A DNA stretch of 64,000 nucleotides, taken from assembly GCA_013204605.1 (NCBI GenBank), contig JABMNI010000060.1:1-64000 (forward strand). Direction: 5' to 3'. This DNA is from Ignavibacteria bacterium (lineage in GTDB: Bacteria; Bacteroidota; Ignavibacteria; Kapaibacteriales; Kapaibacteriaceae). Both the position numbers and the translations under genes were made by a program. The notes under the pieces are model-generated. The model was not told where the DNA came from. It saw only the letters and a list, made by a program, of their open reading frames with translations, and did not search any database. Shown here piece after piece: positions 1,681 through 27,178 of the stretch; the stretch's first letter is position 1, and each line of letters begins with the position of its first letter.

Positions 1681-1693
1681 AGCCCACAAAACT

Positions 1694-1713: not shown

Positions 1714-1744
1714 GTTTTAATAAGTCACTATGGAATGATTGAGC

Positions 1745-2584: not shown

Positions 2585-2595
2585 ATGAATGGTCC

Positions 2596-7560: not shown

Positions 7561-7703
7561 AGAGTACTCCGGTGTCTTGAACATTGTTTAGAACAACTCA
7601 CAAACACTTAAATGGCGAAAAAGTAACGTTGGGTTTAGGGTCGGTATTCACCGCCGAAAAGTCCGTATCATTGAACAATACGGAAACTAAGGTGAAAAAG
7701 CGT

Positions 7704-9972: not shown

Positions 9973-9974
9973 GG

Positions 9975-10982
9975 CTAATTGATAGATTTTCGGTACTTCC
10001 TTACGTTCTGCATGTGCTCTGCCCCAGTAACACTAAACCGATGTTGTCCACTTCCGTCACCCTTGGCCACAAAAAATATATAGTTGTGTTTTTGCGGTGA
10101 AATGGCAGCTGCAATTGCTTTTTTCCCGGGGTTGTTGATGGGTCCGGGCGGCAGTCCAAAAATCACATACGTATTGTACGCATGTTCAGTACCTACGTGC
10201 TTGTTCAAAACCCGCCGCTTCCAACCAAAGCCATACTGAACTGTTGGATCGGCTTCTAACTTCATGCTACGTTTAAGCCTGTTTGAATACACGCCCGCTA
10301 TCGTAGGCATCTCATGTACATCTGCCGCCTCGGCTTGCACAATGCTTGCCAACGTGAGTACTGAGTCGAGTTCGAACTTGTTCATCAAGTCTGCGTTCAA
10401 TTCATCCAACAACTCATCAAAAGCGCGGTGCAACACATCGCCAATGTGTTGTGCAGATTCCCGGAAAAAAAAGTTGTACGTATCGGGCTTGAGGTATCCC
10501 TCCATGGTGGGGGATTGTATTGAATAGTAAGCTCTCACCGAATCGCTTTCGCACCAGTTCACAAATTCCGAAGAATCTGATTTGAGTTCACGTGAGATAA
10601 TTGAAGCCATCTCACGATAGGTGAGTCCTTCGGGAAACGTGACCTTTATACTGGGCTTTCTGTGAGAACTAAAAAGCCCCTTCACAATATCCATCTGTGT
10701 GTCAGTTGGCCGAATTCTAATCCAACCACTCTGCAACGTCCGGCTAGAAAACTTAAGTACAATGCGCGAACAGATTTCTATGAACCACGGATTGGGGACG
10801 CTGATGTGCTGCTGCAAACTGTCGACAATGCTTTTCACCGATGCACCGCGCGGGATGTACACGCTAACTGTAGCTCCAACGTTTACGGGTCTGCTTAACG
10901 CGTGCCACGCGTAACCGGCCACAAATATCAATCCTATTAGTGCGAACAATACTATTCTGGAAGTGGATTTTTTTCTGAGCAT
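9975..10982 (-). CDS. mltG: Endolytic murein transglycosylase MltG
   Basis: MltG (YceG) cleaves nascent peptidoglycan strands in the inner-membrane periplasmic face and helps set glycan chain length. The 335-residue protein has one N-terminal transmembrane helix (9-26), a LysM-like segment (TVSVYIPRGASVKSIVDSL) and the family core: FPEGLTYREMA, EGYLKPDTYNF, LASIVQAEA, EADPTVQYGFG and the signature GLPPGPINNPG. In the LASIV motif Q replaces the first of the two acidic residues often seen (IVEKE), while the second Glu is kept. It is convergent with the GldM-like gene (2-bp gap) and divergent from the small barrel gene, with only 19 bp between the starts. Confidence 0.95.
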   Translation of the reverse strand: MLRKKSTSRIVLFALIGLIFVAGYAWHALSRPVNVGATVSVYIPRGASVKSIVDSLQQHISVPNPWFIEICSRIVLKFSSRTLQSGWIRIRPTDTQMDIVKGLFSSHRKPSIKVTFPEGLTYREMASIISRELKSDSSEFVNWCESDSVRAYYSIQSPTMEGYLKPDTYNFFFRESAQHIGDVLHRAFDELLDELNADLMNKFELDSVLTLASIVQAEAADVHEMPTIAGVYSNRLKRSMKLEADPTVQYGFGWKRRVLNKHVGTEHAYNTYVIFGLPPGPINNPGKKAIAAAISPQKHNYIFFVAKGDGSGQHRFSVTGAEHMQNVRKYRKSIN

Positions 10983-11001
10983 GAGGCAAATTGTACCTGA
11001 A

Positions 11002-11652
11002 ATGAATTACAAAGTTATTGTGTTACCGGTTGTAGGCTGGTTTTGCCTTATGTTGGCAGGGCTGTTTGTAGCAGGACTAATTGTTGCATCCACGGTTCCA
11101 GCACATGCTCAGAGTTCATCCGCTGTACCATCGCATACAAGAAACGCAAAAAAACCAGAGTCGGCTACGGAAGGTGAAGTGAAGTTTGGGGCAACACTTT
11201 TTGCAGTAACAACAAACCGTGAAACAAAATCTTATCCCGGATTTGGATTTGGGGCCGGGGCAAATTTCCCGTTAACGGCATCGGATATTGGAATGCTGTA
11301 TGCAAGTTTTTCTTGCAATATTGGTTTGGGGGCTAAACCAGCCGCAACATCGTTTGACCTACAAAGCATGCAAATCCCGCTTGGGGTAATGTTTAAAATT
11401 GGAGAAAATATTGCGGACGGCAGGCGCTTTATTGGGGGAGCGATAGGCGCGGGAGCGTGCCTTAGCTTTGGACCGTTTGACGATAACGGGGTTGACTTTC
11501 GACCATACATTTCAGCCGACATTATACTTGCCTTATTCGAACGCGGCGCGCTGAAAATTCGGTACTTCACGTTGCTTGGTAACTACGTGGGAAAAAATCA
11601 AGGCATCGTTACGCAGCATGCGTTGTACCTAATAGCTTCCACCGAGTGGTGA
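11002..11652 (+). CDS. Small outer-membrane beta-barrel protein
   Basis: The 216-residue protein begins with a long hydrophobic signal sequence (about 1-36, ending VPAHAQ). Glycine-rich amphipathic strands follow (FGFGAGANFPL, GGAIGAGACLSFG) and the last strand ends HALYLIASTEW, with a C-terminal aromatic typical of outer-membrane barrels. The family was not recognised. The ATG at 11002 gives the best signal peptide; ATGs at 10963 and 10981 would overlap the start of mltG. It has no obvious cargo partner, unlike the other barrels in the window. Confidence 0.75.
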   Translation: MNYKVIVLPVVGWFCLMLAGLFVAGLIVASTVPAHAQSSSAVPSHTRNAKKPESATEGEVKFGATLFAVTTNRETKSYPGFGFGAGANFPLTASDIGMLYASFSCNIGLGAKPAATSFDLQSMQIPLGVMFKIGENIADGRRFIGGAIGAGACLSFGPFDDNGVDFRPYISADIILALFERGALKIRYFTLLGNYVGKNQGIVTQHALYLIASTEW

Positions 11653-11656
11653 AGAA

Positions 11657-12565
11657 TTAATTTTCTTGCACAGTTTGCCGAGTTACCGTTCTTACAAAAA
11701 TATCGTGCAGTGAAGGTTGCGAAACCTCAAACTTAATCACCGCAAAATGTGAGATAGCCCAACTGATTACATCGTTCGTGGCAATTGTTACATCGGTGAG
11801 TTTCAACTCAATGCGTCCCTCAGATTCGCGTAGCAACTGCACGCCCATCGGCAAGGTTGGGCTTGACGATTCGCCGTCATATTCTATTATGATACTGTCT
11901 GCACGTTGCGCTGTTTTGATGCTTCGAACCGAACCATTTAGTACAACTTGCCCTTTATTAATTAACGCAATATCATCGCATAGTTTTTCAACCTGATCCA
12001 TTTGATGTGTCGACAAAATAATAGTCGCACCTCGTTGCTGCATTTCCTTAACCACCTGAATCAATAGATCCGCATTTACCGGGTCGAGTCCACTAAACGG
12101 CTCATCTAAAATCATCAGTTTAGGTTCATGAAGTATGGTAGAAATAAACTGCACTTTTTGCTGCATGCCCTTGCTGAGCTCCTGAACTTTTTTTGTTTGC
12201 CACGATGAAGCGTCAAGCCGGTCAAGCCACCACAAGCTACGCGTCCGTGCGTCTCGTGAAGTAAGACCCTTCAATCGGCCGAAGTACACCAGCTGATCAA
12301 TTACTGACAATTTCTTATACAAGCCGCGTTCCTCCGGCAGATATCCCATCGACTCTTGAGCTGTGGCCGAAACTTCGCTCCCATCCAGTGTAATAGTGCC
12401 TGAATCTGGCTGAATGATGTTTGTGATCATTCGAATGAGGGTGGTTTTTCCCGCACCGTTTGGACCCAAGAGTCCGAAGATCTTTCCGGCACCCACGTTA
12501 ATTGAAACATCGTTATTGGCAGCAAATGCCCCATACTTTTTAGTTACGTGCGAAATTTCTAGCAT
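11657..12565 (-). CDS. ABC-2 type transporter ATP-binding protein
   Basis: The 302-residue ATPase has Walker A GPNGAGKTT (about 36-44), signature LSKGMQQK, Walker B LMILDEP, an H-loop in LSTHQMDQVEKL and a DUF4162-like C-terminal extension. The family (NatA/YhaQ-like) powers export through an ABC-2 permease. No permease gene is next to it: the gene ends 4 bp from a convergent barrel gene, and sdhC is divergent upstream. Its partner must therefore be elsewhere. The start at 12565 (MLEISHV) is preferred over 12604 because AGGACAG lies upstream and the sequence begins at the usual ABC position. Confidence 0.9.
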   Translation of the reverse strand: MLEISHVTKKYGAFAANNDVSINVGAGKIFGLLGPNGAGKTTLIRMITNIIQPDSGTITLDGSEVSATAQESMGYLPEERGLYKKLSVIDQLVYFGRLKGLTSRDARTRSLWWLDRLDASSWQTKKVQELSKGMQQKVQFISTILHEPKLMILDEPFSGLDPVNADLLIQVVKEMQQRGATIILSTHQMDQVEKLCDDIALINKGQVVLNGSVRSIKTAQRADSIIIEYDGESSSPTLPMGVQLLRESEGRIELKLTDVTIATNDVISWAISHFAVIKFEVSQPSLHDIFVRTVTRQTVQEN

Positions 12566-12666
12566 TGATTTATCTGTCCTGAAAAGTAGAGTTCTGATTG
12601 ACAATCTTGTTCAAAGCTACAAAGCCCCCTATAATCGCCATTCTTAATCCATGTCGAAGGCATTCG

Positions 12667-12674
12667 TAACTTTG
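12667..12674 (+). promoter_or_regulatory. Putative TAnnTTTG promoter box for sdhCAB
   Basis: TAACTTTG matches the Bacteroidota -7 element exactly and lies 61 nt before the sdhC start in the only sizeable gap upstream of the operon. No clear -33 TTTG was seen at the usual distance. An iterated octamer (12623-12630) lies just upstream. Confidence 0.45.
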
Positions 12675-12735
12675 TACCTTGAGTGCATCCTGACGAACGG
12701 GTTGGGAGACGATATTTTCACGTGGAGAAGATTAC

Positions 12736-13419
12736 ATGCAACCGCTTTTAGCAATATGGAATTCCACCATATTCCAAAAATGGGTGATGGCCGTGACCGG
12801 TATTGTACTGGTTGGGTTTTTAGCCGGTCACCTTTCCGGAAACCTGTTGATATTTTTAGGTCCCGACCACATGAATGCCTATGGGGTGGAACTTCGGGAG
12901 CTACTTCATGGATCGGTGATATGGGTTACGCGGATTGGGTTACTGCTAGCGTTTGTATTGCATGTCCGCGCAGGCATTGTACTTGCGGCTCGGAACCGGA
13001 AGTCGACAGGCGTCAGTAACTCTAAAGTCACCAATAAAACATCTACCATTGCATCTCGCACCATGGTGTACTCCGGACTGCTCATCCTGTTTTATGTGAT
13101 TTACCACTTAGCACATTTCACATGGGGGCTGGCTCATACTGAATATTACTCATACGTTGACAGCTTAGGAAGGCACGACGTTTACCGAATGGTTGTAGAG
13201 AGTTTTAGAAATCCAGTAATTGTGGCCACGTATTCATTGGCAATGATTGTTACGGGTCTGCATTTAAACCATGCAATTAGTAGTGCGTTTCAGACATTGG
13301 GAATAAACAATCGGCGGATTAACGGTCTTATCCGTTCTGCAGGACCAATTGTAGGAATTGCGTTGGTGCTTGGATTTTTATCGGTGCCCTTATCAGTTGT
13401 GTTTGGACTTGTTAAATAA
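12736..13419 (+). CDS. sdhC: Succinate dehydrogenase cytochrome b558 subunit
   Basis: This membrane anchor of complex II passes electrons between the Fe-S subunit and menaquinone through haem b. The 227-residue protein has about five transmembrane helices with histidines placed as in the diheme b558 family (AGHLSGNL, LHVRAG, YHLAHFTWG, LHLNHAIS). It is the first gene of sdhCAB, 21 bp before sdhA. There is no separate sdhD, as expected for this family. The ORF in another frame at 12651-13019 is a shadow. Confidence 0.93.
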   Translation: MQPLLAIWNSTIFQKWVMAVTGIVLVGFLAGHLSGNLLIFLGPDHMNAYGVELRELLHGSVIWVTRIGLLLAFVLHVRAGIVLAARNRKSTGVSNSKVTNKTSTIASRTMVYSGLLILFYVIYHLAHFTWGLAHTEYYSYVDSLGRHDVYRMVVESFRNPVIVATYSLAMIVTGLHLNHAISSAFQTLGINNRRINGLIRSAGPIVGIALVLGFLSVPLSVVFGLVK

Positions 13420-13440
13420 TCGAATCGGAAAGAAATTACT

Positions 13441-15354
13441 ATGTCATTTGAGAGCTATATCCCTTCCGGTCCGATTGAACAAAAATGGGACAACTACAAA
13501 GCGGAACAAAAACTAGTAAACCCCGCCAATAAGCGTAAATACAAGGTAATTGTAGTGGGAACGGGCTTGGCAGGCTCGGCAGCAGCTGCAAGCTTGGCAG
13601 AGCTTGGATACAACGTGAGCGCGTTTACCTATCATGATTCGCCAAGGCGTGCACACTCGATAGCTGCGCAGGGCGGAATTAATGCGGCGAAGAATTATCA
13701 GAACGATGGCGACTCGGTGTGGCGTCTGTTTTATGACACCGTTAAAGGGGGCGACTTCCGCGCGCGCGAAGCCAACGTGTACAGATTGGCACAGGTTAGC
13801 GAGAGCATCATTGATCAATGTGTTGCCCAAGGCGTTCCTTTTGCTCGTGAGTATGGCGGATACCTTAGCAATCGTTCGTTTGGCGGTGCGCAAGTTTCAA
13901 GAACGTTTTATGCGCGAGGTCAAACGGGTCAGCAATTATTGATTGGTGCGTATCAGGCGTTGTCGAGGCAAATTGGCCTTGGCAAGGTAACTATGCACAA
14001 CAAGAATGAAATGATGGATTTGATTGTTGTGAATGGCAAGGCCCGCGGAATTGTGACTCGAGATTTAGTGACGGGCAAAATTGAATCACATATTGCCGAC
14101 GCAGTTTTACTTTGCACCGGTGGTTATGGAAATGTTTTTTACTTGTCAACGAACGCCATGAATTGCAACGTAACAGCGGCATATCGGGCTTACAAAAAAG
14201 GTGCGTTTTTTGGCAATCCATGTTACACACAAATTCATCCAACCTGCATTCCTGTAAGTGGTGACTACCAATCTAAGCTTACGTTAATGAGTGAGAGCTT
14301 GCGTAACGATGGCAGAATTTGGGTCCCAAAAACTCAAGGCGAAGCACGTGGTGCTGCAGAAATTCCTGAAACAGAACGTGATTACTATTTGGAGCGCAAG
14401 TATCCATCTTTTGGCAACCTTTCCCCGCGCGACATTGCATCCAGAGCCGCCAAGGAAGCCTGCGATGACGGCCGTGGAGTAGGACCGGGTGGAAAAGGTG
14501 TGTACCTAGATTTTGCCGACGCGATAAACAGGCTGGGTCAGAGCACGATCGAAGAGCGTTACGGAAACCTCTTTGAAATGTACGAACGCATTACCGGCGA
14601 AAACCCGTACAAGGTGCCAATGCGGATTTATCCTGCTGTGCATTACACAATGGGTGGACTCTGGGTTGACTATGAATTGATGTCGACAATTCCCGGACTC
14701 TTTGTTTTGGGCGAAGCTAATTTCTCCGATCACGGTGCCAACCGTCTCGGCGCTTCTGCACTAATGCAGGGTCTCGCCGATGGCTACTTCGTTATTCCAT
14801 ACACACTTGCAAACTACTTTGCCAAGGGCGGCATCGAAAAAATCGACACTTCCATAAAAGAAGTCCGCGATGCCCAGCAGCAATCAACAGAAAAAATTCA
14901 ATCGCTGCTTTCCATTAACGGAAAGCGCACTCCAACATCGTTCCACCGCGAGCTTGGAAAAATTATGTGGGATAAATGCGGGATGGCGAGAAATGAAAAG
15001 GGGCTTTCTGAAGCGCTCATCGAAATACCAGCCCTGCGAGAAGAGTTTTGGCAAAACCTTACGGTACCTGGTTCGGGCGAACAGCTAAATCAAAGCTTGG
15101 AAGTTGCTAATCGCGTTGCTGACTTTTTGGAATTCAGTGAGCTGATGGTTCGTGACGCAGTTGAAAGAAGAGAATCTGCCGGCGGACATTTCAGAGAAGA
15201 ATATCAAACACCAGATGGCGAAGCCAAACGCAACGACGAAGAATTTAGTTACGTTGCCGCATGGGAGTACAAGGGCGAGGGTTCTAAACCTGAATTGCAC
15301 AAAGAGCAGTTGGAATTTGAAAATGTTAAACTTGCAACGCGGAGTTACAAATAA
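13441..15354 (+). CDS. sdhA: Succinate dehydrogenase/fumarate reductase flavoprotein subunit
   Basis: The catalytic FAD subunit oxidises succinate to fumarate, or the reverse. The 637-residue protein shows the dinucleotide-binding [15 protein letters not shown] (about 38-52) and [14 protein letters not shown], which carries the His that usually bonds covalently to FAD. Active-site segments are [41 protein letters not shown] and [20 protein letters not shown]. The long form with a C-terminal extension is typical of the b558-type enzyme. Its stop codon shares one base with the sdhB start. An iterated octamer at 14998-15005 encodes KGL. Confidence 0.97.
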
Positions 15355-16091
15355 TGAATTTACGATTGCATATTTGGCGTCAAACTGGTCCGTCGGATCA
15401 CGGAATGCTTCGCGCATATAATGTGAACAATGTTAGCGAACACATGAGCTTTCTGGAAATGCTCGATGTGTTGAATGAAGAATTGATTGAAAAAGGGGAA
15501 GAGCCCGTTGCCTTCGATCATGATTGCCGCGAGGGAATTTGTGGCACGTGTGGAATGGTTATTAATGGTCGACCTCACGGTCCACTTAGTAGAACAACCG
15601 CATGTCAACTGCACATGCGATCGTTTAAAGATGGCGATGAAATTTACATCGAACCATGGCGGGCAACAGCCTTCCCGATAGTTCGAGATTTGGTTGTAGA
15701 TAGATCTGCGTTCGACCGTGTAATTCAACGCGGTGGATTTGTTAGCGTCAATACCGGAAATGCTCAAGATGGGAATGCTATTCCAATTTCGAAAATTGAT
15801 GCAGATGTTTCCATGGACGCAGCAGCCTGTATTGGATGCGGTGCCTGCGTAGCGGCGTGTCCGAACTCTTCTGCTTCGTTATTTGTTGCGGCAAAAATTG
15901 GACATTTGGTTGCGCTCCCACAAGGAAAGGCTGAAGCGGCTACCAGAGCAATGAGCATGGTGTTGAGCATGGATGCCGAAGGTTTTGGCAGTTGTACCAA
16001 CCACTATGAATGCGAAGCAGCCTGCCCTAAGGGTATCAGTGCAGACTTTATAGCGCAAATGAACCGAGAATTCATGAAAAGCGTGTTTTAG
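15354..16091 (+). CDS. sdhB: Succinate dehydrogenase/fumarate reductase iron-sulfur subunit
   Basis: The 245-residue protein carries the electron-transfer clusters of complex II. The plant-type 2Fe-2S ligands are C58, C63, C66 and C84 ([10 protein letters not shown] ... TTAC). The ferredoxin-like half has C159-x2-C162-x2-C165-x3-C169 ([12 protein letters not shown]) and C214, C220, C224 ([12 protein letters not shown]) for the 4Fe-4S and 3Fe-4S clusters. The ATG overlaps the sdhA TAA by one base. The 3' end overlaps the convergent pdxJ gene by 4 bp. Confidence 0.97.
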
Positions 16092-16804
16092 TCTCGTAGC
16101 AGCTGAATGTATTCTCGGACTGCCATATCCAAGCCAACGAACATGGCGCGGCACATTAGTGCATGTCCAATACTAACCTCTTCGATTTGTGGAATCGACA
16201 ACACGGGTCTGAGATTTCGTAGGTCAAGGCCGTGTCCAGCGGTTACAACAAGGCCTGCTTCAGCCGCCAACTCTGCGGCTGTTTGAAGTCTCGAGAGTTC
16301 GGCCTCTGCTTCGGCCCGTGTTCGGGCGTTGGCATACGTGCCAGTGTGAAGTTCAACAATGTCGGCGCCGCACCTTATAACTGCCTCGATTTGTTGTGCA
16401 TCGGGTTCAACGAACAAACTCACCGCGATGCCCTTGGCATGGAACGCGCTTGCTACGTCAGTCAACCGATTCTCGTTACCGTGCACAGCTAAGCCCCCTT
16501 CAGTAGTTAACTCAGCCCTATTTTCAGGCACAATAGTTACCAAATCCGGAACAACGTCTAGAGCAATGGCTATAATTGAATCAATTGCGGCCATCTCCAA
16601 ATCTAGCTTAGTTGATACCACATCACGGAGCAAACGCACGTCGCGGTCGTTAACATGCCGGCGGTCTTCCCTCAAATGACAAACGATCCCAGAGGCTCCT
16701 GCAAGTTCTGCCAAAACGGCAGCATGCACGGGGTCAGGATCCATGCCCCCACGAGCTTCTCGAAGCGTTGCTACATGGTCGATATTAACGCAAAGTCGTA
16801 TCAT
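16088..16804 (-). CDS. pdxJ: Pyridoxine 5'-phosphate synthase
   Basis: PdxJ condenses 1-deoxyxylulose 5-phosphate with 3-amino-2-oxopropyl phosphate in the DXP-dependent vitamin B6 pathway. The 238-residue TIM barrel shows the family motifs [15 protein letters not shown] (7-21), [38 protein letters not shown] and EVSIGHAL. The length is normal. It is convergent with sdhB (4-bp overlap) and divergent from a T9SS gene. No pdxA is nearby. Confidence 0.96.
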
Positions 16805-16914
16805 CGTGTAAATAAATAATTGTAACTAAGTGATTTTTGGCCAGTTGTGTGCCTATCCGGGCATATTCTAGCGTCAGTACCCGATCATGCCACGTTTTGG
16901 ATATCACAAAAGTA

Positions 16915-16922
16915 TACTTTTG
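16915..16922 (+). promoter_or_regulatory. Putative TAnnTTTG promoter box
   Basis: TACTTTTG fits the Bacteroidota -7 consensus 40 nt before the ATG of the T9SS protein gene at 16963, in the 158-bp divergent gap with pdxJ. No convincing -33 partner was seen. Confidence 0.35.
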
Positions 16923-16962
16923 GTCGGTGGATTCTACTCGAAAAGCGCAAAAAATCAAAAAA

Positions 16963-19900
16963 ATGGAGGAAGATGTGAATTATTGGAACCAACTATTTTC
17001 AAAGACAAACCAAGTCTTTTTTTACCTGTACGTGTTGTTGTTAGCTGGCGTTCCTGCGTTTGCAAACAACCATGACCTTACCGGTTTCATTGCCAATCAA
17101 GGACAGTGGCCAGCTGAGGTTTTGTTTGTTAACAAACAGCCCAACATGAATGTCTGGATTACGAAAACTGGTGTAGTATTTGACCAGTATGGCGTGAACA
17201 AAACAAGTAGTCTAGTTGATGGAAATGTTGTAAGAATGACATGGGAAGGGGCTTCAACAAACCCTGTATCTGAAGTGAATTCTGCTCAACACGCAACTGT
17301 GAACTTCATGAAAGGCAATGATCCTTCTGCATGGAAGATTGGCGTTCCTGTGTACAATCGTGTGCGAGTTGCCGGAATTTATCCAGGCGTGGATGCCGTG
17401 TATTACATGGATAACGGCGCAGTGCGTTACGACCTGGATGTTAAGAAAGGTGTCGCTCTGAACACGATTGAGTTAAAATTTGCGGGTGACGACGGCATTG
17501 AAGTTTCCGGTTCCGAGATTAAACTCAGAACACCGGTTGGCTCGATTGTAATGACAGATCTGTTCGCATATTTCTTCGGACAGCGGAGTTTGCAAACAGC
17601 AGCTCACTTTTCTACGACCGCCAATGGCGTTAAAATTTCAGTACCGGAGCATAATGGATCGAAACCATTAACAATTGACCCACTTGTATACGGTACATAT
17701 TTTGGTGGTGCGGCCAGCGATGATGTGTGTGGTGTTGAATTGACCACTGCTGGAGTAATAATTGCAGGTACAACGTCAGGAATTGATTTTCCTGTTGGAA
17801 CGGGTAAATATCAATCTGCCGTTGCCGGCGAAACGGATGCTTTTGTTGCGGTGATGGACAAAAAGTTGAAGCAGGTGGTAAACTACACCTACATTGGTGG
17901 GGGCTCGCCGGAGCGAGCGCGAGCGTTAACAGTTGATAAAGATGGCAACATATACCTAACCGGCGAAACATCGTCGATTGATTTCCCTGTGACCGTTGGA
18001 GCGGCGGGTCAGTTGTATAAATTAAAGATTGACGTGTTTGTTATTAAGCTTAATCCAGGCATCGATAAGTTACTTGTTGCAACCTATATTGGGGGTAACA
18101 AGGACGATATTCCACGTACAATTGCAGTGGATGTAAATAGTAACATTTTTGTAGGCGGGTCTACCACCTCTAATGCAAATTTTCCAACAACGTTAGCACA
18201 TCAGTCCGTGCACGGTGGAACTACAGATTGCTTCTTAGCAAAACTTACCCCCAATGGATCGTCGTTTTTGTTCTGCACGTACTTCGGTAAAGCAGGTAAC
18301 GAGAGTATTATTGGGATGACGTTAGACGCAGACGGTGCACCGTTTGTGACCGGCTCAACTAGTTCCTCAGATTTTGAAACAGCCCCGGCACCAGCAAGGT
18401 GGTCTTCTGGGCGTGTGCCGTACGACCGTACTTACAATGGCGGTAATACCGACGGATTCTTGATTAAGTTCTTCCCCGATGGCACACTTTCAAAGAGAGA
18501 CGATGGAACATTCTCTACTTACTTCGGTGGCAAGGGCGAAGATGAAGGTCGTGGGGTATGGGTAGATGCATTAGGGCGAGCAGTTTTGGTTGGAAACACA
18601 ACTTCGACGGATCTACCAACGGTAGGTACAATTTTCCCTGCGAAAATCGGGGCACAAGACATATTTATGGCTGTGTTTACTGACGACGGTAGGGCTCTGA
18701 CTAGCTGCACATACTATGGCGGGCTTGGGACTGACGACGTGCGAGGTGTTCGAAAAGATCCAACTGGAAACATTGGTATAATGTTTGGCTCTACTAGTTC
18801 GACAGATTTCCCAACGGTTGGCGCCGGAGCTACAATTGATCGTAGAGGAGCTTCTGATGGGTTTATAGCAGCAATAAATACATCCACAAATAAATTTTGC
18901 ACATTAGTAGCAGGCTCTGATGCCGACACAGTTACTGCAATCGCTGTTGATGCTGTGGGTGACGTATATCTATCGCTGTCGAGTCAGTCGACAGATTTAT
19001 ACGTGGGAGATACAGCTTGGCACAACGCCCCTCAAGGTGATAACGATGGATACGTTGCAAAATTTGCATTTGGCACAATAGGTATTCAATCTCCTTTTGG
19101 TGGAGAACAGCTGTGCATTGGAACAAATCAGTCCATCACCTGGGCAACGACGGATATGTATGAGACAGACAGATATACAGTTGAGCTCTCAACTGATGGA
19201 GGTTTAACTTGGTCTGAGCTAGCTAGAGATATAACGGTTAAGGCATTCCAGTGGAAACCCGCTGCCAATCTAATTGAAGCCTCGAAGTATCGAATTAGAG
19301 TTTCCAGTCCACGGGGTCATGTCACATCGAGTCAGAATTTCTCGTTGGTAAAATCCCCATCAATTTCGGTACAACCAAAACCGGTATCTGCATGTACAGG
19401 AAAGCCCGTTACCATGAGTGTGGTGGCTGAGGGTGTTGGATTAAAGTATCAGTGGCGTAAAAACGGAACATTGGTGGCTGGTGCAACCAAGGCGCAGTAT
19501 GACATTCCTGCCGTTGATGCATCGAGTGCCGGCAAATACGATGTAGTAGTGTCGGGGCAGTGTAGTCCCACCGTTACGAGTGCCCAAATTGATGTGCTTG
19601 TTGCGGTTCAGACGAAAATTACTACGCAGCCGGCAGCCAACACCACTGTGGTAGAAAACAAGCCCCTCACACTTTCGGTGGCGGCCGTTGGGGGAACGCT
19701 TACATACCAATGGCAGAAAAATGACGCCGATATTCCAAATGCGAAAGCTGCGAACTTTGAAATCATGTCGGTATCGATGGCCGATGCCGGAGTGTACACG
19801 TGTAAAATTTCGGGTGGCTGCGGTGACGTTACGTCCGATCCTGCAACAGTAATTGTCGATAAAGGCAGCTCTGTAGCCGAAGACGTTTACAACAACGTTA

Positions 19901-20157
19901 GAGAAGTGTTGGTTGTAGGTCCAATTCCAGCAACCGACGCCTTGCGTGTGGATGCAACGTTCAGCAAGACCGGTACGGTAACGGCCCGATTTGTAAACAG
20001 TCACGGAGCCGTAACTTTTGAGCAAAACCTAGGAATGATCGACGCCGGTAGAAACCAACTCAGCTTGTCAGTTGCTACTCTATCATCGGGCATCTATGGT
20101 TTGGAGATTATGATGAACGGTACATTACTACGAGTAATGGTTGCAGTGAGTAGGTAA
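16963..20157 (+). CDS. T9SS-secreted SBBP and Ig-domain protein
   Basis: The 1064-residue protein has a signal peptide (hydrophobic FFYLYVLLLAGVPAFA, cut near residue 34). It is followed by a DUF7948-like N-terminal domain (about 35-230, ending LTIDPLVYGTYFGG) and SBBP propeller repeats with the pattern TYFGG..D...G (about 235-690). Then come a Kre9/KNH-like sandwich (FGGEQLCIGTNQSITW), two Ig-like domains (KYQWRKNG, TYQWQKN) and a T9SS type A sorting domain (GPIPATDALRVDATF ... SSGIYGLEIMMNG). The ATG at 16963 is used; a GTG at 16975 with GGAGG 5 nt upstream is a strong alternative. The far-upstream ORF start at 16837 would bury the signal peptide. It is paralogous to the gene at 20965. Confidence 0.9.
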   Translation: MEEDVNYWNQLFSKTNQVFFYLYVLLLAGVPAFANNHDLTGFIANQGQWPAEVLFVNKQPNMNVWITKTGVVFDQYGVNKTSSLVDGNVVRMTWEGASTNPVSEVNSAQHATVNFMKGNDPSAWKIGVPVYNRVRVAGIYPGVDAVYYMDNGAVRYDLDVKKGVALNTIELKFAGDDGIEVSGSEIKLRTPVGSIVMTDLFAYFFGQRSLQTAAHFSTTANGVKISVPEHNGSKPLTIDPLVYGTYFGGAASDDVCGVELTTAGVIIAGTTSGIDFPVGTGKYQSAVAGETDAFVAVMDKKLKQVVNYTYIGGGSPERARALTVDKDGNIYLTGETSSIDFPVTVGAAGQLYKLKIDVFVIKLNPGIDKLLVATYIGGNKDDIPRTIAVDVNSNIFVGGSTTSNANFPTTLAHQSVHGGTTDCFLAKLTPNGSSFLFCTYFGKAGNESIIGMTLDADGAPFVTGSTSSSDFETAPAPARWSSGRVPYDRTYNGGNTDGFLIKFFPDGTLSKRDDGTFSTYFGGKGEDEGRGVWVDALGRAVLVGNTTSTDLPTVGTIFPAKIGAQDIFMAVFTDDGRALTSCTYYGGLGTDDVRGVRKDPTGNIGIMFGSTSSTDFPTVGAGATIDRRGASDGFIAAINTSTNKFCTLVAGSDADTVTAIAVDAVGDVYLSLSSQSTDLYVGDTAWHNAPQGDNDGYVAKFAFGTIGIQSPFGGEQLCIGTNQSITWATTDMYETDRYTVELSTDGGLTWSELARDITVKAFQWKPAANLIEASKYRIRVSSPRGHVTSSQNFSLVKSPSISVQPKPVSACTGKPVTMSVVAEGVGLKYQWRKNGTLVAGATKAQYDIPAVDASSAGKYDVVVSGQCSPTVTSAQIDVLVAVQTKITTQPAANTTVVENKPLTLSVAAVGGTLTYQWQKNDADIPNAKAANFEIMSVSMADAGVYTCKISGGCGDVTSDPATVIVDKGSSVAEDVYNNVREVLVVGPIPATDALRVDATFSKTGTVTARFVNSHGAVTFEQNLGMIDAGRNQLSLSVATLSSGIYGLEIMMNGTLLRVMVAVSR

Positions 20158-20223
20158 CGTTTTTTCTACGTTTTTTTAATAAAAATCACACTTTTATTGT
20201 TTGGTCGTTTTCTAACGACTTCG

Positions 20224-20231
20224 TATCTTTG
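20224..20231 (+). promoter_or_regulatory. Putative TAnnTTTG promoter box for the fasciclin gene
   Basis: TATCTTTG matches the Bacteroidota -7 element and lies 45 nt before the fasciclin ATG, downstream of an AT-rich stretch (TTTTATTGTTTGG). Confidence 0.5.
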
Positions 20232-20276
20232 TGATAAGAGAGTCTCCAATCACTTATATCATTTGAAAGACACACT

Positions 20277-20687
20277 ATGAAATCGATTATCACAATCTTT
20301 ACCATTGCGGCGCTGACGTTTGTCGTCGCTTCATGCACTTCAGAGCAAGGTAACGTCGAAAAATCAGATTCGCCTGCTGCAAAACCTGGCCAAGGTCAAT
20401 CGGGTGTTCAAGATGATGAGTCCCAGAAAGACATATTGCACATCGCCATGGGCTCGAAAGATCACACCACCTTGGTTGCAGCGGTCCAGGCAGCTGAACT
20501 AGAGAATGCATTATCAAATGCAGGACCCTTTACCGTGTTTGCGCCTACTGATGCAGCTTTCGCTAAGCTTCCTGCGGGAACAGTGGAGGATTTGGTGAAA
20601 CCTGAGAATAAAGACAAACTGTCCGATATCCTATATCACCACTTAGCGATTTCTGTTTTTGAAGAGTCGTCGCTAACCGATGGGTAA
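20277..20687 (+). CDS. Fasciclin-domain lipoprotein, truncated by an in-frame TAA
   Basis: The 136-residue product has a lipoprotein signal (MKSIITIFTIAALTFVVASC, lipobox VASC, Cys20). A FAS1/fasciclin domain follows, with HTTLVAAVQAAELENAL, the classic GPFTVFAPTDAAFAKLP and LSDILYHHL. FAS1 domains mediate adhesion at cell surfaces. Here the domain stops early at TAA (20685-20687), but the same frame continues open to 20831 and encodes the missing C-terminal third of FAS1. Homologous loops often read LTDGxxLxM, so the stop replaces one residue, plausibly Gln (CAA to TAA). It has its own promoter-like box and a downstream terminator, so it is a single-gene unit. Confidence 0.85.
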   Translation: MKSIITIFTIAALTFVVASCTSEQGNVEKSDSPAAKPGQGQSGVQDDESQKDILHIAMGSKDHTTLVAAVQAAELENALSNAGPFTVFAPTDAAFAKLPAGTVEDLVKPENKDKLSDILYHHLAISVFEESSLTDG

Positions 20688-20831
20688 GATTTAGGAATGT
20701 TCGACGGAGTGAGCGCTAAAATCACCAAAAAAGATGGCTCATGGTTCATTAATGGTGCAAAAATTTTAGGCACAGTACGAGCTTCAAACGGCATTGTTCA
20801 CGTTACGGATGGAGTGGTGTTAGATAAGTAA
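20688..20831 (+). pseudogene. Separated C-terminal part of the fasciclin domain
   Basis: After the TAA at 20685 the frame stays open for 47 codons to TAA at 20829-20831. It encodes the end of a FAS1 domain: DLGMFDGVSAKITKK, SWFINGAKILGTV and SNGIVHVTDGVVL, the last being the conserved H-box-like region. Codon quality and domain fit are intact, so the damage, if real, is a single substitution. It could be a recent nonsense mutation, a sequencing or assembly error, or a readthrough site. Confidence 0.8.
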
Positions 20832-20856
20832 TAGAACTCTATAAGTATTCCATCGA

Positions 20857-20890
20857 AGGGGGCTAGGTAACACTTAGCCCCTTTTTTGTC
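20857..20890 (+). terminator. Rho-independent terminator built from an inverted pair of the iterated octamer
   Basis: AAGGGGGCTA and TAGCCCCTT form a stem with one bulged G around a short loop (GGTAACACT), followed by six or more T residues. Both arms are copies of the genome-wide octamer in opposite orientation (20857-20864 and 20876-20883). It lies 25 bp after the restored fasciclin stop. Confidence 0.85.
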
Positions 20891-20951
20891 ACATAATTGC
20901 TGCAATAGTACACTAGTAGGAAAATGCTACCTCAAGGTTTGTGAAATTCTC

Positions 20952-20959
20952 TATTTTTG
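20952..20959 (+). promoter_or_regulatory. TAnnTTTG box adjacent to a start codon
   Basis: TATTTTTG ends 5 nt before the ATG at 20965. If it is used as the -7 element, transcription would begin at about the start codon, giving a leaderless mRNA. The T-run makes a chance match possible. Confidence 0.3.
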
Positions 20960-20964
20960 TTCCT

Positions 20965-23496
20965 ATGCGTCTATACAACTTCTTAAAAATCGGATTAGCG
21001 TCGGTAATTGCTTTTTATGCAATTCAATTGCAAGCTGGCGACGGTGGCGGACCATTTATCAACGGCAAGATGCTCGGATCCGACATGCACGAAGAAATAA
21101 CGTGCATGGTAAAATTGGCCAATGGTAAGGTGGCTGTGGGTGGGTGGACAGATGCTTTTGAGCCGTGGGCAACTGGGGGGTATCAGGAGGTCCATGCCGG
21201 TACATTCGATGGCTTCATCGCCATTCTGAGTTCGGATTTACAGACCGTAGAGAACTTCACTTTTTTTGGTGGAACCGCCTCAGATTACATTACCGGGATT
21301 GCTGAAGATCCGTTGGGGAACATAATAGTAATTGGCAACACGGAAACCAACAAACTCCCAACTACTATTGGAGCACTTTTCCCTTTATACAAAGCCGGCG
21401 TTGAGGGCTTCCTTTTTGCGTTTTCGCCGCAATTGGAATCTATCAAATACGGGACATATATTACCGGCCCGAAAGACGAATTTCCCAAGGTAGTTAAACT
21501 CGACATCACGGGAAATATTTACGTATGCGGGTCCACAAATTCAACCTATGATTTTCCTACTACCAATGGTTACGATAAAACGCACAACGGGAATATGGAT
21601 GCGTTTTTAATGAAATTCGCGCCCGGTGCAGCCATTCTGCATTTCTCTACGTACTTCGGTAGCGATGGTACCGATGAATTTTTGGGAATGACGGTAACTA
21701 AATCAGGAACCATACTTTGTACTGGTTACACAACCAGCGGTGGGTATCAAACGTATCCGGCGGTGATTCCTTCGCAATGGTGGCAAACTAAGGACCGACC
21801 TTATGACTGGACCTATAACGGAGGAACTTCCGACGCTGTTTTAACGGTGTTTTCGGAAGACGGAGCTCAACTAATAGTTTCAACATATTACGGTGGAGCG
21901 AATGCAGACTTTGGTAGAGCCGTGGTAGTTGACGATCGCGGACGAATAAACCTAATCGGAGATTCCTACTCAACGGACCTGCCCGTCAACTCGGGATTTC
22001 AAGGCTCAAATAAAGGGGGCTCAGATGCCTTTTTAGTCCAATTTAATGAGACAGGTAGAACCTTGCTGGCATCGACGTACTTTGGTGGCGACGGCGACGA
22101 TATAGTGAGTGGTGCTGAATACTACAATCAAGATTTGTTTGCCATTTATGGCGTTTCAAAGTCGAGAAATTTCCCGATGTTTGGGGGCGGCTCTACCAAC
22201 GAGTTAACGGGCGGACAAGATGCCTTTCTTGCTCTTGCAGCAAATTCTCTGATTGAAGTCTCGACCTTTATTGGTGGTAACGCAAAAGAAGAGTTCAAGG
22301 CATGTAGTATAGGTGCGAATGGTATAATCACGTTGGCAGGTTATAGCACATCCGAGAGCATTCAACTTGGAAGAGGCGTGGCTACTAATAACGGAGCTAG
22401 AAATACCTCCGACGGGTTCGTGACGAATTTTGCCCGAGGCTCTGAAAACTTGGTAACCCCAATTGGCCAAGAGAAGTTTTGCATTGGACAGCAAAACACA
22501 ATTTCGTGGTCAGTAGTTGATATGCCCCCGGATGAAAGTTACTCGATTGACGTCCGTTCTAGTCCCGATGCCGAATGGATTACTATAGCCAAAGACGTTG
22601 TTTCAAAATCGTATCAATGGCGTCCAGAAACTACGTTGACTCCTTCTTCGCAGTATCAAATGCGACTCAGAAGTTCCCGCGGTCACGATTCTCGAACTCC
22701 ATATCAATTCACAATCTATCCCGCTGTCAACATCGTTCAAAATCCCATAAGCGCTGTAGTTTGCCAAGGAGATACCGCTGTTGTTTCCGTTGAAGTTGTT
22801 GGTGCTGAGTTACGATATACGTGGAAGAAAGATGGGAATGTGATGAGTGGGTTTACGTCTGCGTCTATAACAATTCCTAATTTTTCAACTGAGAATGCGG
22901 GCAAGTATGAGTGTTTTGTTCAAAGCGTTTGCGGACAATCTGCCAGTTCAACTGCTGGAATTGTTTCTATAGGTTCTAAAACGTCGATAACAACACAGCC
23001 AGCAGATGTAAATGTTTCTATCGGCAGCCAACTGTCGATTAGTGTTACGGCAGTTGGATCAACGTTAACGTACCAATGGTATAAGGACGGCAGTCTGTTA
23101 CCAGGAAAAGTAGCGGCAACCCTCACCGTCAGCGTCTCGACTGTTGCTGATGCTGGCACCTATTCTTGCAACGTAATCGGTGCGTGCGGTAGTCAACGAT
23201 CGAAGGATGCCACAGTAAATGTTGTTACCACGTCAGTAAACGACCAAGTTGAAAATGGTCACATTGAAATGTGGCCGCAACCCGCCGACAACCTGCTCAC
23301 CCTGAAGCTGAGTTATCCTGTTAAGACCTTTACGGTGTATTCTGTCCAGGGTGCCATGGTGATGGAGATGAATTCTTCGCCTACTGATGGACAAATTCAA
23401 ATTGATTGTGAGAATTTCAATTCGGGATTGTACACGGTTGCACTTACTTCCACTAGTGGAGTTGTTTCAGCGCATCAGTTCGTAGTACGGCACTAA
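20965..23496 (+). CDS. T9SS-secreted SBBP and Ig-domain protein
   Basis: The 843-residue paralogue of the protein at 16963 lacks the DUF7948-like domain. After a signal peptide (MRLYNFLKIGLASVIAFYAI, cleavage after LQA) it goes straight into SBBP repeats (TFFGG, STYFGSDGTDE, TYYGGANAD, to about 490). A Kre9-like sandwich (GQEKFCIGQQNTISW), two Ig-like domains (RYTWKKDG, TYQWYKDG) and a T9SS sorting domain (IEMWPQPADNLLTLKL ... NSGLYTVAL) follow. The ATG at 20965 is preferred; an in-frame GTG at 20941 would lengthen the signal peptide by eight residues. It stands alone between the terminator and the SUF operator. Confidence 0.88.
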   Translation: MRLYNFLKIGLASVIAFYAIQLQAGDGGGPFINGKMLGSDMHEEITCMVKLANGKVAVGGWTDAFEPWATGGYQEVHAGTFDGFIAILSSDLQTVENFTFFGGTASDYITGIAEDPLGNIIVIGNTETNKLPTTIGALFPLYKAGVEGFLFAFSPQLESIKYGTYITGPKDEFPKVVKLDITGNIYVCGSTNSTYDFPTTNGYDKTHNGNMDAFLMKFAPGAAILHFSTYFGSDGTDEFLGMTVTKSGTILCTGYTTSGGYQTYPAVIPSQWWQTKDRPYDWTYNGGTSDAVLTVFSEDGAQLIVSTYYGGANADFGRAVVVDDRGRINLIGDSYSTDLPVNSGFQGSNKGGSDAFLVQFNETGRTLLASTYFGGDGDDIVSGAEYYNQDLFAIYGVSKSRNFPMFGGGSTNELTGGQDAFLALAANSLIEVSTFIGGNAKEEFKACSIGANGIITLAGYSTSESIQLGRGVATNNGARNTSDGFVTNFARGSENLVTPIGQEKFCIGQQNTISWSVVDMPPDESYSIDVRSSPDAEWITIAKDVVSKSYQWRPETTLTPSSQYQMRLRSSRGHDSRTPYQFTIYPAVNIVQNPISAVVCQGDTAVVSVEVVGAELRYTWKKDGNVMSGFTSASITIPNFSTENAGKYECFVQSVCGQSASSTAGIVSIGSKTSITTQPADVNVSIGSQLSISVTAVGSTLTYQWYKDGSLLPGKVAATLTVSVSTVADAGTYSCNVIGACGSQRSKDATVNVVTTSVNDQVENGHIEMWPQPADNLLTLKLSYPVKTFTVYSVQGAMVMEMNSSPTDGQIQIDCENFNSGLYTVALTSTSGVVSAHQFVVRH

Positions 23497-23547
23497 TATT
23501 AGCATCGCTTAGCCTCCTTATTTAGCGTTTAACGTTGCCCCCTTCCA

Positions 23548-23572
23548 ATATGCGACTAATAAAGTCGTATAT
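23548..23572 (+). promoter_or_regulatory. IscR/Rrf2-type operator upstream of sufB
   Basis: A 25-bp palindrome reads ATA-TGC-GACT-AATAA-AGTC-GTA-TAT. It matches the core and spacing of the IscR type 1 site (ATA, GACT, five A/T-rich bases, AGTC, TAT) and lies 41 nt before the sufB ATG. It overlaps a TATATTGC promoter-like box at 23568-23575. An Rrf2 gene with IscR-like cysteines is the eighth gene of the operon, so autoregulation by Fe-S status is likely. Confidence 0.8.
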
Positions 23573-23613
23573 TGCGTGTCTAAACGCATACCATCATCAA
23601 AGAATGAGAGATA

Positions 23614-25059
23614 ATGGCTACAGATACGGAAGTGCTTAATGAAGTTGTCGAATCCGATTATAAGTATGGATTTGTCAGCTCCATCGAGCAGGATATAATT
23701 GCTAAGGGGCTAAGTGAGGACGTTGTTCGGTTTATTTCTGCGAAAAAGGATGAACCCGAGTGGCTGCTAGAATGGCGTCTTGCTGCATTTCGGCGTTGGG
23801 TTGAGATGCCCGAACCAACATGGTCAAATGTGCATTATCCGAAAATCGACTTTCAAGAAATTATTTATTGGGCAGCTCCTAAACAGAAGGAATTGTTGGG
23901 CTCGTTAGATGAGGTAGATCCTGAGTTGTTGGAGACTTTTGCCAAACTTGGGATTCCATTAGAAGAACAAAAAGTGTTAGCTGGTGTAGCCGTGGATGCG
24001 GTGTTTGACAGCGTATCCGTGAAGACTACATTTCAAGCGGCGCTAAAAGAAAAAGGCGTCATCTTCTGTCCGCTATCAGAAGCCGTTAAAACCCACCCTG
24101 AGTTAGTCAAAAAATACCTCGGCTCAGTTGTTGCAGCCACAGACAATTATTACTCGGCTTTAAACAGCGCCGTGTTTAGCGATGGTTCATTCGTGTACAT
24201 ACCTAACGGCGTGCGATGTCCGATGGAGCTTAGCACATACTTCCGCATTAATGCGCGTAACACCGGTCAGTTTGAGCGAACATTAATAATTGCTGATGAA
24301 GGCAGTTACGTGAGCTACCTTGAAGGTTGCACAGCTCCAATGCGAGACGAAAATCAATTGCATGCGGCCGTGGTTGAGCTCATTGCACATAAAGATGCAG
24401 AGATAAAATATTCCACCGTCCAGAACTGGTATCCCGGCGATAAAAATGGCAAGGGTGGCATCTACAATTTTGTGACAAAGCGTGGAATCTGCGAAGGAAG
24501 CGGGAGTAAAATTTCGTGGACGCAGGTTGAAACCGGCAGTGCTATTACATGGAAATATCCGAGTGTGATTTTAAAGGGCGACAACTCAATTGGAGAATTC
24601 TACAGCGTTGCCGTCACCAATAACCATCAGCAAGCAGATACCGGTACCAAGATGACGCACATAGGTAACAATACCCGAAGCCGAATTGTATCAAAAGGTA
24701 TTTCAGCGGGTGTTAGTCAGAATTCATACCGTGGTCTTGTTAAAGTGCTAAAGAAGGCTCAAAATGCACGCAACTATTCACAGTGCGACTCATTGCTGTT
24801 AGGCGATAAGTGCGGAGCCCACACGTTCCCGTACATTGAAGTTGCAAATAGCAACGCCATAGTTGAACATGAAGCTACCACGTCAAAAATTGGCGAAGAC
24901 ATTTTATTCTATTGCAATCAGCGCGGAATTTCAACCGAAGATGCCGTTGCTCTAATTGTAAATGGATATTGTAAGGATGTATTAAATCAACTGCCAATGG
25001 AGTTCGCCGTTGAAGCGCAAAAACTCCTGGCAATTTCACTCGAAGGAAGCGTTGGATGA
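23614..25059 (+). CDS. sufB: Fe-S cluster assembly scaffold SufB
   Basis: SufB is the scaffold subunit of SufBC2D on which clusters are built in the cytoplasm. The 481-residue protein is near-standard length and shows [86 protein letters not shown] and [21 protein letters not shown]. The stop codon overlaps the sufC start in an ATGA. It is the first gene of the SUF operon and directly follows the IscR-type operator. Confidence 0.98.
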
Positions 25060-25823
25060 GTTCTCTTATTGAAATAAAAAATTTACGCGCCGGTATTGAA
25101 GGAAGAGAAATTCTGAAAGGTATTTCGCTTTCGGTACAACCAGGTGAGGTGCATGCGATTATGGGACCCAACGGTTCCGGTAAATCCACATTAGCATCGG
25201 TGTTAGCAGGTAAATCAGAATATGAGGTGCTAGGGGGCTCTGTGGAATTCCTCGGACAAGACCTCTTGGAGATGAATGCGGAAGATCGTGCACGAGCAGG
25301 ATTGTTCTTGGCGTTTCAATATCCCGTGGAGATTCCAGGAGTTTCGACAGCAAATTTTCTGAAGACGGCAGTAACGCAAATTCGAAAATTTCGCAACCAG
25401 CCTGCGCTGGGTCCGGCGGAGTTTCTCGCTCTTATGCGCGAAAAAATGAAACTCGTAGAAATGGATCAGTCGTTTCTTAGCAGGTCACTCAACGAAGGTT
25501 TCTCCGGCGGCGAAAAAAAGCGCAATGAAATATTTCAAATGGCAATGCTCGAACCAAAACTCAGTGTAATGGATGAAACAGATTCCGGGTTGGATATCGA
25601 TGCGCTAAAAATTGTCGCAGATGGAGTAAACACATTACGCAATAGCGACAATGCATTTGTTGTTATCACACACTATCAACGTCTACTCAATCATATCGTG
25701 CCCGACGTAGTGCACGTGCTTTGGGACGGACGCATTGTTAAATCCGGCGGTAAAGAACTTGCATTGGAACTCGAAGAAAAAGGTTACGATTGGATAAAAG
25801 CAGAATCAGCGGTAGAGGCGTAA
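25056..25823 (+). CDS. sufC: Fe-S cluster assembly ATPase SufC
   Basis: SufC is the ABC-type ATPase of SufBC2D. The 255-residue protein has Walker [10 protein letters not shown] (37-45), Q-loop [11 protein letters not shown], signature [18 protein letters not shown] and the SufC-specific Walker B region [14 protein letters not shown], with the H-loop in [10 protein letters not shown]. It overlaps sufB by 4 bp; sufD starts 2 bp after its stop. Confidence 0.98.
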
Positions 25824-25825
25824 CG

Positions 25826-27178
25826 ATGAACAAGGTTGATTTGCAAAATGAAATTGCCTCGCTCTACGAGCAGAGAAACATGCTAGTAAGAGCTAGGTCC
25901 GAAGCCGAGGCCAAGAATAGTGGTGCGAACGGAAATAACGCGAACGAGGTACGCAAGAATGGCGTGTCAAATTCAACAGTCTCCTTAAGTGAACGAGCAT
26001 TTGCAGAGTTTTCAAAAATTGGAGTCCCAGACCAACGGTTTGAAGAATGGAAATATGCTGCTCCGAAGTTGTTCAAAGCTGCAAGTGCACAGGGTGCATT
26101 GTCAGCTGAACTGGTGATAAAGAACGCTATGGTTCTTACAGTTGAAGATGGCGAGTTTATTATCGAGGAGAGCTCAAATCCGAATATGTTGTCTGGCGTG
26201 ACCGTGCATCTGATTAGCGATGATAACTTTGAGACCGATCCATCTGTGGCGATAGCTTTTGAAAGTATCCTCGAGAAAAAAAACCTGCCTTTCGCATCGT
26301 TGCAAACCGCTATCGAAGAGTACACAATTGCTATTCACGTGACCGGCGAAATTGAAGTTCCTATTCACATTAGGTACATCACGAACTCGCTAGGTGCCTT
26401 GCTAATTTCAACTCCTACGGTGTTGCTTTTTGCTGCACCAAATAGTAAGGTTACCTTGGTTGAAGAGCATGTTTCACATCAGCCCGGCAATACCATTGTT
26501 ACCAGCCTTACCTCAGTTGTTGCTCAGTCAGGCTCGCAAGTAAATTACATCAAGGTCGATCACGGAACCGGTCAGAAATCAATTGCGCATACAACGGCCG
26601 ACGTGTTTAGCAACGCTACCTTTAATGCATACACAGCATGTCTGCAGGGCGGCTTCGTTCGAAACGACCTTCATGTGCGGCTGCTGGAACCCTCAGCCGA
26701 TGTTCACATGTACGGAGTATCGGTTCTTGATGCTGAAGATTTAGCCGACAACCACACCGTGGTAGATCATGTAGCACCGCATTGCACCTCGCGAGAATTG
26801 TATAAGGGGCTTTATGGTGGCAAGTCCGTTGGAGTTTTTAACGGAAAAATTTACGTCCGACCCGATGCCCAAAAAACGTTAGCGTATCAAGCTAATCATA
26901 CGTTGTTGCTTTCAGATTCTGCGCAGATAAATACAAAGCCCCAACTCGAAATATGGGCCGATGATGTGAAGTGTTCGCATGGCGCAACAACGGGTCAACT
27001 TGATGAAGATGCGTTGTTCTATTTACGGTCGCGTGGGATTGGGATGCAAGCGGCAAAGCAACTTCTTACAAATGCATTTGTAGGTGAAGTTGTAGATCGT
27101 CTTCCGGTTACCGAAGTAAGAGAATTTGTGCAACAACACATTAACAACACATTGCACGTAACAGAAATTGAAGCTTGA
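25826..27178 (+). CDS. sufD: Fe-S cluster assembly protein SufD
   Basis: SufD is a SufB paralogue and partner in the SufBC2D scaffold. The 450-residue protein has an N-terminal helical part with a variable, asparagine-rich insert (about 30-55). Its beta-helix core contains DNHTVVDHVAPHCTSRELYKG, SVGVFNGKIYVRPDAQKT, QLEIWADDVKCSHGATTGQ and DEDALFYLRSRGI. The ATG at 25826, just after the sufC stop, is preferred over an ORF start at 25790 inside sufC. The stop overlaps the TTG start of sufS. Confidence 0.95.
   Translation: MNKVDLQNEIASLYEQRNMLVRARSEAEAKNSGANGNNANEVRKNGVSNSTVSLSERAFAEFSKIGVPDQRFEEWKYAAPKLFKAASAQGALSAELVIKNAMVLTVEDGEFIIEESSNPNMLSGVTVHLISDDNFETDPSVAIAFESILEKKNLPFASLQTAIEEYTIAIHVTGEIEVPIHIRYITNSLGALLISTPTVLLFAAPNSKVTLVEEHVSHQPGNTIVTSLTSVVAQSGSQVNYIKVDHGTGQKSIAHTTADVFSNATFNAYTACLQGGFVRNDLHVRLLEPSADVHMYGVSVLDAEDLADNHTVVDHVAPHCTSRELYKGLYGGKSVGVFNGKIYVRPDAQKTLAYQANHTLLLSDSAQINTKPQLEIWADDVKCSHGATTGQLDEDALFYLRSRGIGMQAAKQLLTNAFVGEVVDRLPVTEVREFVQQHINNTLHVTEIEA

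Follow-up and report, generated by a model that had tools for sequence, protein, structure and literature searches.

A predicted transcription terminator formed by an inverted pair of an iterated octamer that is confined to one bacterial family

To our knowledge, DNA uptake sequences are known only in Neisseriaceae, Pasteurellaceae and their near relatives, all of which use type IV pili. Chi sites are G-rich asymmetric octamers. A full-text literature search, with most subscription papers and all preprints outside its scope, returned no report of an uptake sequence in Bacteroidota or of the octamers described here. According to the available part of PMC1852404, the uptake motif lies within about 55% of the strong terminators of Neisseria and within 17-29% of those of Pasteurellaceae.

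The window, which is the whole stretch of 64,000 nucleotides analysed here (C55:1-64000), belongs to a genome of 2.69 Mb in 86 contigs and contains 42 copies of the octamer ARGGGGCT. A first-pass annotation of this window had described two opposite-orientation copies of an iterated octamer followed by a T-run, and had called them a transcription terminator. The features of the locus are as follows.

20277-20687, plus strand: fasciclin-domain open reading frame (PF02469, E 1.7e-17), ending at an in-frame TAA
20688-20831, plus strand: remaining fasciclin frame past the in-frame stop, ending with TAA at 20829-20831; orthologues are open at the stop position
20855-20885, plus strand: predicted terminator hairpin with a 14-bp stem and a 3-nt loop (-20.7 kcal/mol, z -4.88)
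20857-20864, plus strand: octamer AGGGGGCT (ARGGGGCT, R=G), whose flanks rank at the 30th percentile by score among 292 sites
20876-20883, minus strand: octamer AAGGGGCT (ARGGGGCT, R=A), whose flanks rank at the 10th percentile by score among 292 sites
20882-20887, plus strand: T6 tail of the predicted terminator; in the fold, the left arm can pair with the first four of these T
20941-23496, plus strand: next gene, identified by domain match as an SBBP/Ig protein with a Por-secretion C-terminal tail; start at 20941 or soon after

The description of the arms is borne out, with AGGGGGCT and AGCCCCTT inverted in the 14-bp hairpin and followed by T6. The plus strand reads AGCCCCTT at 20876-20883, which is AAGGGGCT on the minus strand, and the two arms, separated by a gap of 11 bp, represent the G form and the A form of the single motif ARGGGGCT. 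When the plus strand of 20845-20895 is folded, the stem halves are 20855-20868 and 20872-20885, and none of 200 shuffles is as stable as this hairpin. The fold of the minus strand of the same segment is weaker (-13.4, z -2.0). As is typical of an intrinsic terminator, the hairpin is stable and GC-rich, is followed directly by the T-tract, and lies on the coding strand just 3' of the gene end, starting 23 nt after the TAA at 20829-20831 and 168 nt after the in-frame TAA. The exact 27-mer of the hairpin region occurs once in the genome. A simple scanner applied to 16000-26000 reports 12 terminator-like matches (10.3 expected by chance), the hairpin site not among them, and a stricter scan of our own picks up the site as terminator-like. 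An Rfam scan of the window at the gathering threshold gives 0 matches. A promoter-like match, TTGTCA-17 nt-TACACT, is seen at 20886-20914, where it starts in the terminator tail upstream of the next gene; 19 such sites are found in the region, against 15 expected by chance.

The fasciclin gene is flanked by two related SBBP/Ig proteins, encoded at 16837-20157 and 20941-23496. The Por-secretion tail of the latter scores above the cut-off and points to the Bacteroidota group. Homologous fasciclin genes are present in 7 of the 23 genomes of the family, including this one. At the position of the in-frame TAA (20685-20687), the relatives have Gln (L191-L194), Lys (L195) or Ser (L196) when aligned by eye. 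This stop may reflect a pseudogene, an assembly error or a real truncation, and the fasciclin unit upstream of the hairpin may be decaying, given this stop.

In L191-L196, the 70 nt downstream of the stop have fold z values of -2.5, -6.9, -6.2, -3.2, -6.6 and -3.1, respectively, and the value at the fasciclin locus of this genome is -3.2; L197, a fragment at a contig end, is left out of this comparison. The z value is therefore -3 or lower at six of the seven loci (this one and L192-L196), with L191 as the exception. A value below -3 is found at 7.2% of 250 gene ends and at 0.4% of 250 random places of this genome. The downstream stems of the six relatives are unrelated in their letters and octamer-free, and T-tails do not follow all of the orthologue hairpins, some of which may protect the RNA end instead of terminating transcription. 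Because the place of the hairpin is kept and its letters are not, we conclude that a hairpin at this gene end predates, or is independent of, the octamer arms. The unrelated, octamer-free stems of the orthologues likewise suggest that the pair was co-opted, which neither proves nor refutes a role of the octamer in uptake.

The earlier terminator call is thus well supported by the fold, the T-tail, the position and the orthologue hairpins. The hairpin at 20855-20885 is probably a Rho-independent terminator of the fasciclin gene, with arms co-opted from a motif whose abundance has another cause. As the polymerase copies the inverted arms, a G-rich 14-bp hairpin would fold in the RNA, and the U-tract would then free the transcript ahead of the next gene. 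The arms themselves would have been recruited from ARGGGGCT or have drifted into it.

That the octamer is iterated, as also claimed in the first-pass annotation, is confirmed by its genome-wide count. ARGGGGCT occurs 1871 times (960 and 911 on the two strands), whereas the reversed-pattern control occurs 82 times (34 and 48). Like the uptake sequences known as DUS and USS, it is therefore a short motif present in hundreds to thousands of copies on both strands. In a first sample of 419,214 bp no other octamer comes near its over-representation, with 292 copies against 13 expected from a tetramer-frequency model, and the summed count of its 44 one-mismatch forms is close to that expected (356 against 333). 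Coding and non-coding DNA have similar densities, which per kb are 0.69 and 0.76 in the first sample, 0.66 and 0.91 in a larger sample of 1,103,205 bp (41% of the genome), and 0.39 and 0.70 in the relative G004, whose genome is complete. These values depend on the gene calls of a home-made caller. The larger sample includes contigs C29, C35, C65, C72, C76, C80 and C85, which were chosen because they hold inverted pairs, and contigs completed from the first sample, among which C6, C7 and C11 are known to hold pairs. Only 12-16% of the octamers lie beyond predicted genes, and the possibility that they are mainly terminator arms is rejected on this ground. Octamer density is 1.88 per kb within 60 bp after gene ends (31 sites), 0.84 before starts and 0.76 elsewhere in intergenic DNA. 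The list of sites in the window had hinted at regular spacing, which is rejected; the spacing is near-exponential (CV 0.98). The k-mers of this genome also include a repeat around AAAGCTGAAGGCGAAAGC, present in about a dozen copies and probably a tandem repeat in coding DNA.

A longer site has the octamer as its core. When the sites are aligned, base composition is biased between about -12 and +18, with T-rich positions -9 to -4, G/T at -3, G at -2, T at +8, C/T at +11, and G at +12 and +13. A matrix built from the flanks only gives held-out sites a score of 2.3 and random places a score of -3.6. An extended degenerate consensus around a core is also a property of DUS and USS. Some near-miss cores, such as AACGGGCT, have the same flanks, and the two octamers of the window pair have poorer flanks than most sites.

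This motif is confined to one family. Among 60 genomes of the order, including this one, it exceeds the control at least 6.9-fold in 19 of the 23 genomes of the family and less than 2-fold in all 37 genomes outside it. The four family genomes below 6.9-fold for ARGGGGCT are G005, G006, G002 and G008, and three of these have spellings of their own by whole-genome counts: ARGGGGCR in G005 (1131 against 154), ARGGGGCC in G006 (679 against 54) and ARGGCGGC in G002 (1052 against 342). ARGGGGCR is also preferred in the whole genome of G003 (1031 against 132), and in the largest genus (g2) the last position of the octamer mixes T and R. A search of the k-mers of a sample of G008, which is of the same genus as G002, yields no ARGG-type motif, and CRISPR-like repeats dominate there; about 70 copies of such a repeat are counted by eye in this sample (L170-L189). 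The relatives were sampled in part for logos and k-mers, and the logos of G006, G003 and G005 rest on 28, 24 and 48 sites, respectively. Common to the dialects is A-R-G-G, in most of them also G at -2 and +10, and the middle varies. Lineage dialects are likewise a property of DUS and USS, and those seen here would fit the drift of a single recognition system. An extended motif with genus dialects, confined to one family, is a larger discovery than the hairpin. A second over-represented motif, ARAGATCT, is seen in the sample of G004 (L146-L165; 174 copies in 400 kb against 13 expected) and is perhaps derived from a repeat array.

ARGGGGCT would be the conserved core of a DNA site of 25-30 bp that some factor of the family recognises and that a process enriching its copies has spread, with a dialect for each genus. 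The function that we prefer for it, tentatively, is an uptake-like recognition of self-DNA without type IV pili, in which a putative outer-membrane receptor favours DNA with the motif, transformation spreads the motif, and the dialects track changes of the receptor. The pattern of the dialects, in which A-R-G-G and mostly G at -2 and +10 are kept while the middle changes, fits this function. So does the lack of copies in two stretches. In the first sample, the longest stretch lacking the motif is C3:2636-15338, which has a GC content of 0.54, as compared with about 0.44 after it, and looks foreign; the second longest, C2:15474-24106, contains a transposase-like gene. Other long gaps between octamers hold ordinary-looking genes, for example that of RecA. 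Any motif that spreads slowly could nevertheless be scarce in both of these motif-free stretches. The region from about 1000 to 15500 of the C3 contig (L085, G000:C3), with GC of about 0.54 in a contig of about 0.44, is nearly octamer-free and holds DnaX-, RecR- and other housekeeping-type genes; it may be a transferred block or, as these genes make possible, a mis-joined contig. Transformation of Riemerella requires ComEC, DprA and a TonB-receptor-like outer-membrane protein, according to the available part of PMC8459023, and uptake without pili is therefore possible in principle. Against this function stand the near-absence of excess among the one-mismatch forms and the hypothetical nature of the receptor. 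When 792 predicted proteins (1.10 Mb) are scanned with regular expressions for motifs of DprA, ComM, UvrD-like proteins and methyltransferases, no clear candidate emerges, but these expressions are crude and do not imply absence.

The pair at 20855-20885 may alternatively be pure coincidence, so that the stem of an ordinary terminator happens to read as the octamer. GGGGCT-N0-30-AGCCCC is found at 10 places in the genome and the divergent arrangement at 18. Full octamers form 8 convergent and 11 divergent close inverted pairs, 19 in all; seven of the divergent places do not have two full octamers, as read off the pair list. These genome-wide lists are free of contig-selection bias. A pair unique in the genome would have spoken against the terminator according to the first-pass annotation, but this pair is not unique, and two of the other pairs, C85:27147 and C80:8432, also have T-tails. 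Random placement gives 10.3 +/- 3.3 convergent and about 10 divergent pairs. Thus, close inverted pairs are not in excess overall (19 against about 20), and only 38 of the 1871 octamers are in pairs. They are nevertheless enriched in intergenic DNA, where 13 of the 19 pairs lie as compared with an expected 20.6% (binomial 9e-6), or 13 as compared with 4.1 (Poisson 3e-4); 11 of these are assigned by the gene calls of the larger sample and two by a cruder assignment, and the expectations are scaled from the 1,103,205-bp sample. In the same sample, no octamer pairs of the same direction are found at gaps of 0-30, against 8.1 expected. Intergenic DNA thus favours short inverted pairs, and inside genes close pairs are rare whatever their orientation. 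Seven of the 11 divergent pairs have 14-16 bp between the octamers (P 5e-5, uncorrected for the choice of this interval), and all seven are intergenic (L204-L210: C6:28559, C80:8432, C35:1561, C72:78, C73:382, C29:15089 and C7:27757). The pairs at C6:28559 and C80:8432 are nearly identical over 30 bp. In 400 kb of G004, with 173 sites, two divergent pairs lie within 60 bp, and convergent pairs at this distance are absent.

In the first 419 kb, the strict terminator scan classes 19 sites as terminator-like, of which only the window site contains octamers. In 1.10 Mb, a sample enriched for pairs, it detects 52 sites, 14 of them in coding DNA. Three of the 52 contain octamers, each of them two: the window site, C85:27147 and C80:8432. 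No terminator with a single octamer is found among the 52. The pair at C85:27147 lies between convergent genes and has T-tails on both sides, and the hairpin at C80:8432 has a T-tail and likewise lies at a gene end. Octamer-pair terminators are therefore an existing but small class in this genome; the scan program differs from that of PMC1852404, and three of 52 is to be compared with the percentages for Neisseria and Pasteurellaceae with this difference in mind. Coincidence agrees with the ten or so convergent pairs expected by chance, with the other stems used by the orthologues and with the weak flanks of the window sites. Against it stand three octamer-pair terminators alongside no single-octamer ones and the roughly threefold over-representation of full inverted pairs in intergenic DNA, and it is rather unlikely.

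The octamer may instead be a true DNA uptake sequence of the Neisseria and Haemophilus type, with paired copies selected as terminators, a usual by-product. Its copy number, its presence on both strands and in coding and non-coding DNA, its extended consensus and its dialects fit, as does the preference of inverted pairs for intergenic DNA and gene ends, although pairs are not in excess overall. A ComEC domain is present in 21 of the 23 genomes of the family, but it is equally common without the motif (36 of 37 genomes of motif-free families); in the ComEC protein of this genome only the Competence domain is seen, and the sole match of a ComF-like frame is a phosphoribosyltransferase domain. 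Two models were used for the type IV pilus machinery, which in DUS and USS systems includes a motif-binding minor pilin. The PilQ secretin model matches none of the 60 genomes, but it is insensitive (7 of 14 controls matched, only 1 over the cut-off). The model of the type II/IV ATPase, PF00437, exceeds the cut-off in none of 40 genomes, 11 of which give short weak matches below it, while 13 of 14 controls exceed it. Because no convincing secretin or ATPase match is found, a classical uptake sequence is unlikely in this family, and we regard this origin of the octamer as very improbable. The proposal that the inverted pair strengthens an uptake reading is weak, because stems can be recruited from any G-rich motif that is abundant and because type IV pilus parts are not found with these models; of the earlier interpretation, the terminator is well supported and this argument is weak. 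The uptake reading rests instead on the dialects, the extended consensus and the presence in both coding and non-coding DNA.

Two further explanations rank behind self-recognition without pili. An iterated motif of the HIP1 type, kept by methylation or a mismatch-repair bias, would agree with the coding and non-coding spread, the near-exponential spacing and, as for the alternate HIPs in the available part of PMC4390886, the substitution of other spellings in some genomes, but HIPs are palindromic while ARGGGGCT is not self-complementary and has an extended asymmetric consensus, which makes this explanation very unlikely. A Chi-like recombination site of a RecBCD/AddAB-type enzyme, to which an asymmetric G-rich octamer with a sharp core and variants between genera would correspond, is hardly probable, because both flanks are conserved over about 30 bp and strand bias is rejected: octamers on the G-rich strand number 149 against 143 on the other (summed by hand in the sample of this genome, the GC skew of short pieces being a rough proxy for replication), 96 against 77 in G004, and 139 against 117 relative to the gene strand, with no clear preference for the leading strand or gene direction.

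If the family marks its own DNA without type IV pili, as we tentatively prefer, the dialects would give a direct handle on the receptor, namely as a protein that changes along with the spelling. The motif might then represent a third, independent origin of dialect-bearing uptake sequences, in a Bacteroidota-like family without such pili and with a putative outer-membrane DNA receptor, where inverted pairs are starting to be co-opted as terminators, as they are on a large scale in Neisseria; this is a speculative possibility. The terminator would be a further case of the evolutionary by-product known from Neisseria, at an early or weak stage.

ARGGGGCT resembles Chi as a G-rich asymmetric octamer, and differs from it by the lack of a clear strand bias and by a much longer flanking consensus. 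It is highly iterated in coding and non-coding DNA and has alternates in some genomes, as do HIP1 and the alternate HIPs of cyanobacteria, but the latter, as described in the available part of PMC4390886, are palindromes tied to methyltransferases, whereas ARGGGGCT is asymmetric and has extended flanks. As compared with the DUS dialects of Neisseriaceae (PMC3630211, available part), the sequence and the bacterial group are different, and a ComP-type pilin system is not detected with the secretin and ATPase models; what is alike is that lineages differ in related spellings of a common core and that each spelling abounds in the genomes of its lineage. The pairs are rarer than those of DUS and USS in Neisseria and Pasteurellaceae (19 full pairs among 1871 sites), form few terminators and occur where type IV pilus parts are not found. 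They nevertheless share with those systems, as the available part of PMC1852404 describes them, the scarcity of close pairs in the same direction, preferred pair spacings, and an abundant short motif whose inverted copies, up to about 30 bp apart, form hairpins with T-tails at gene ends.
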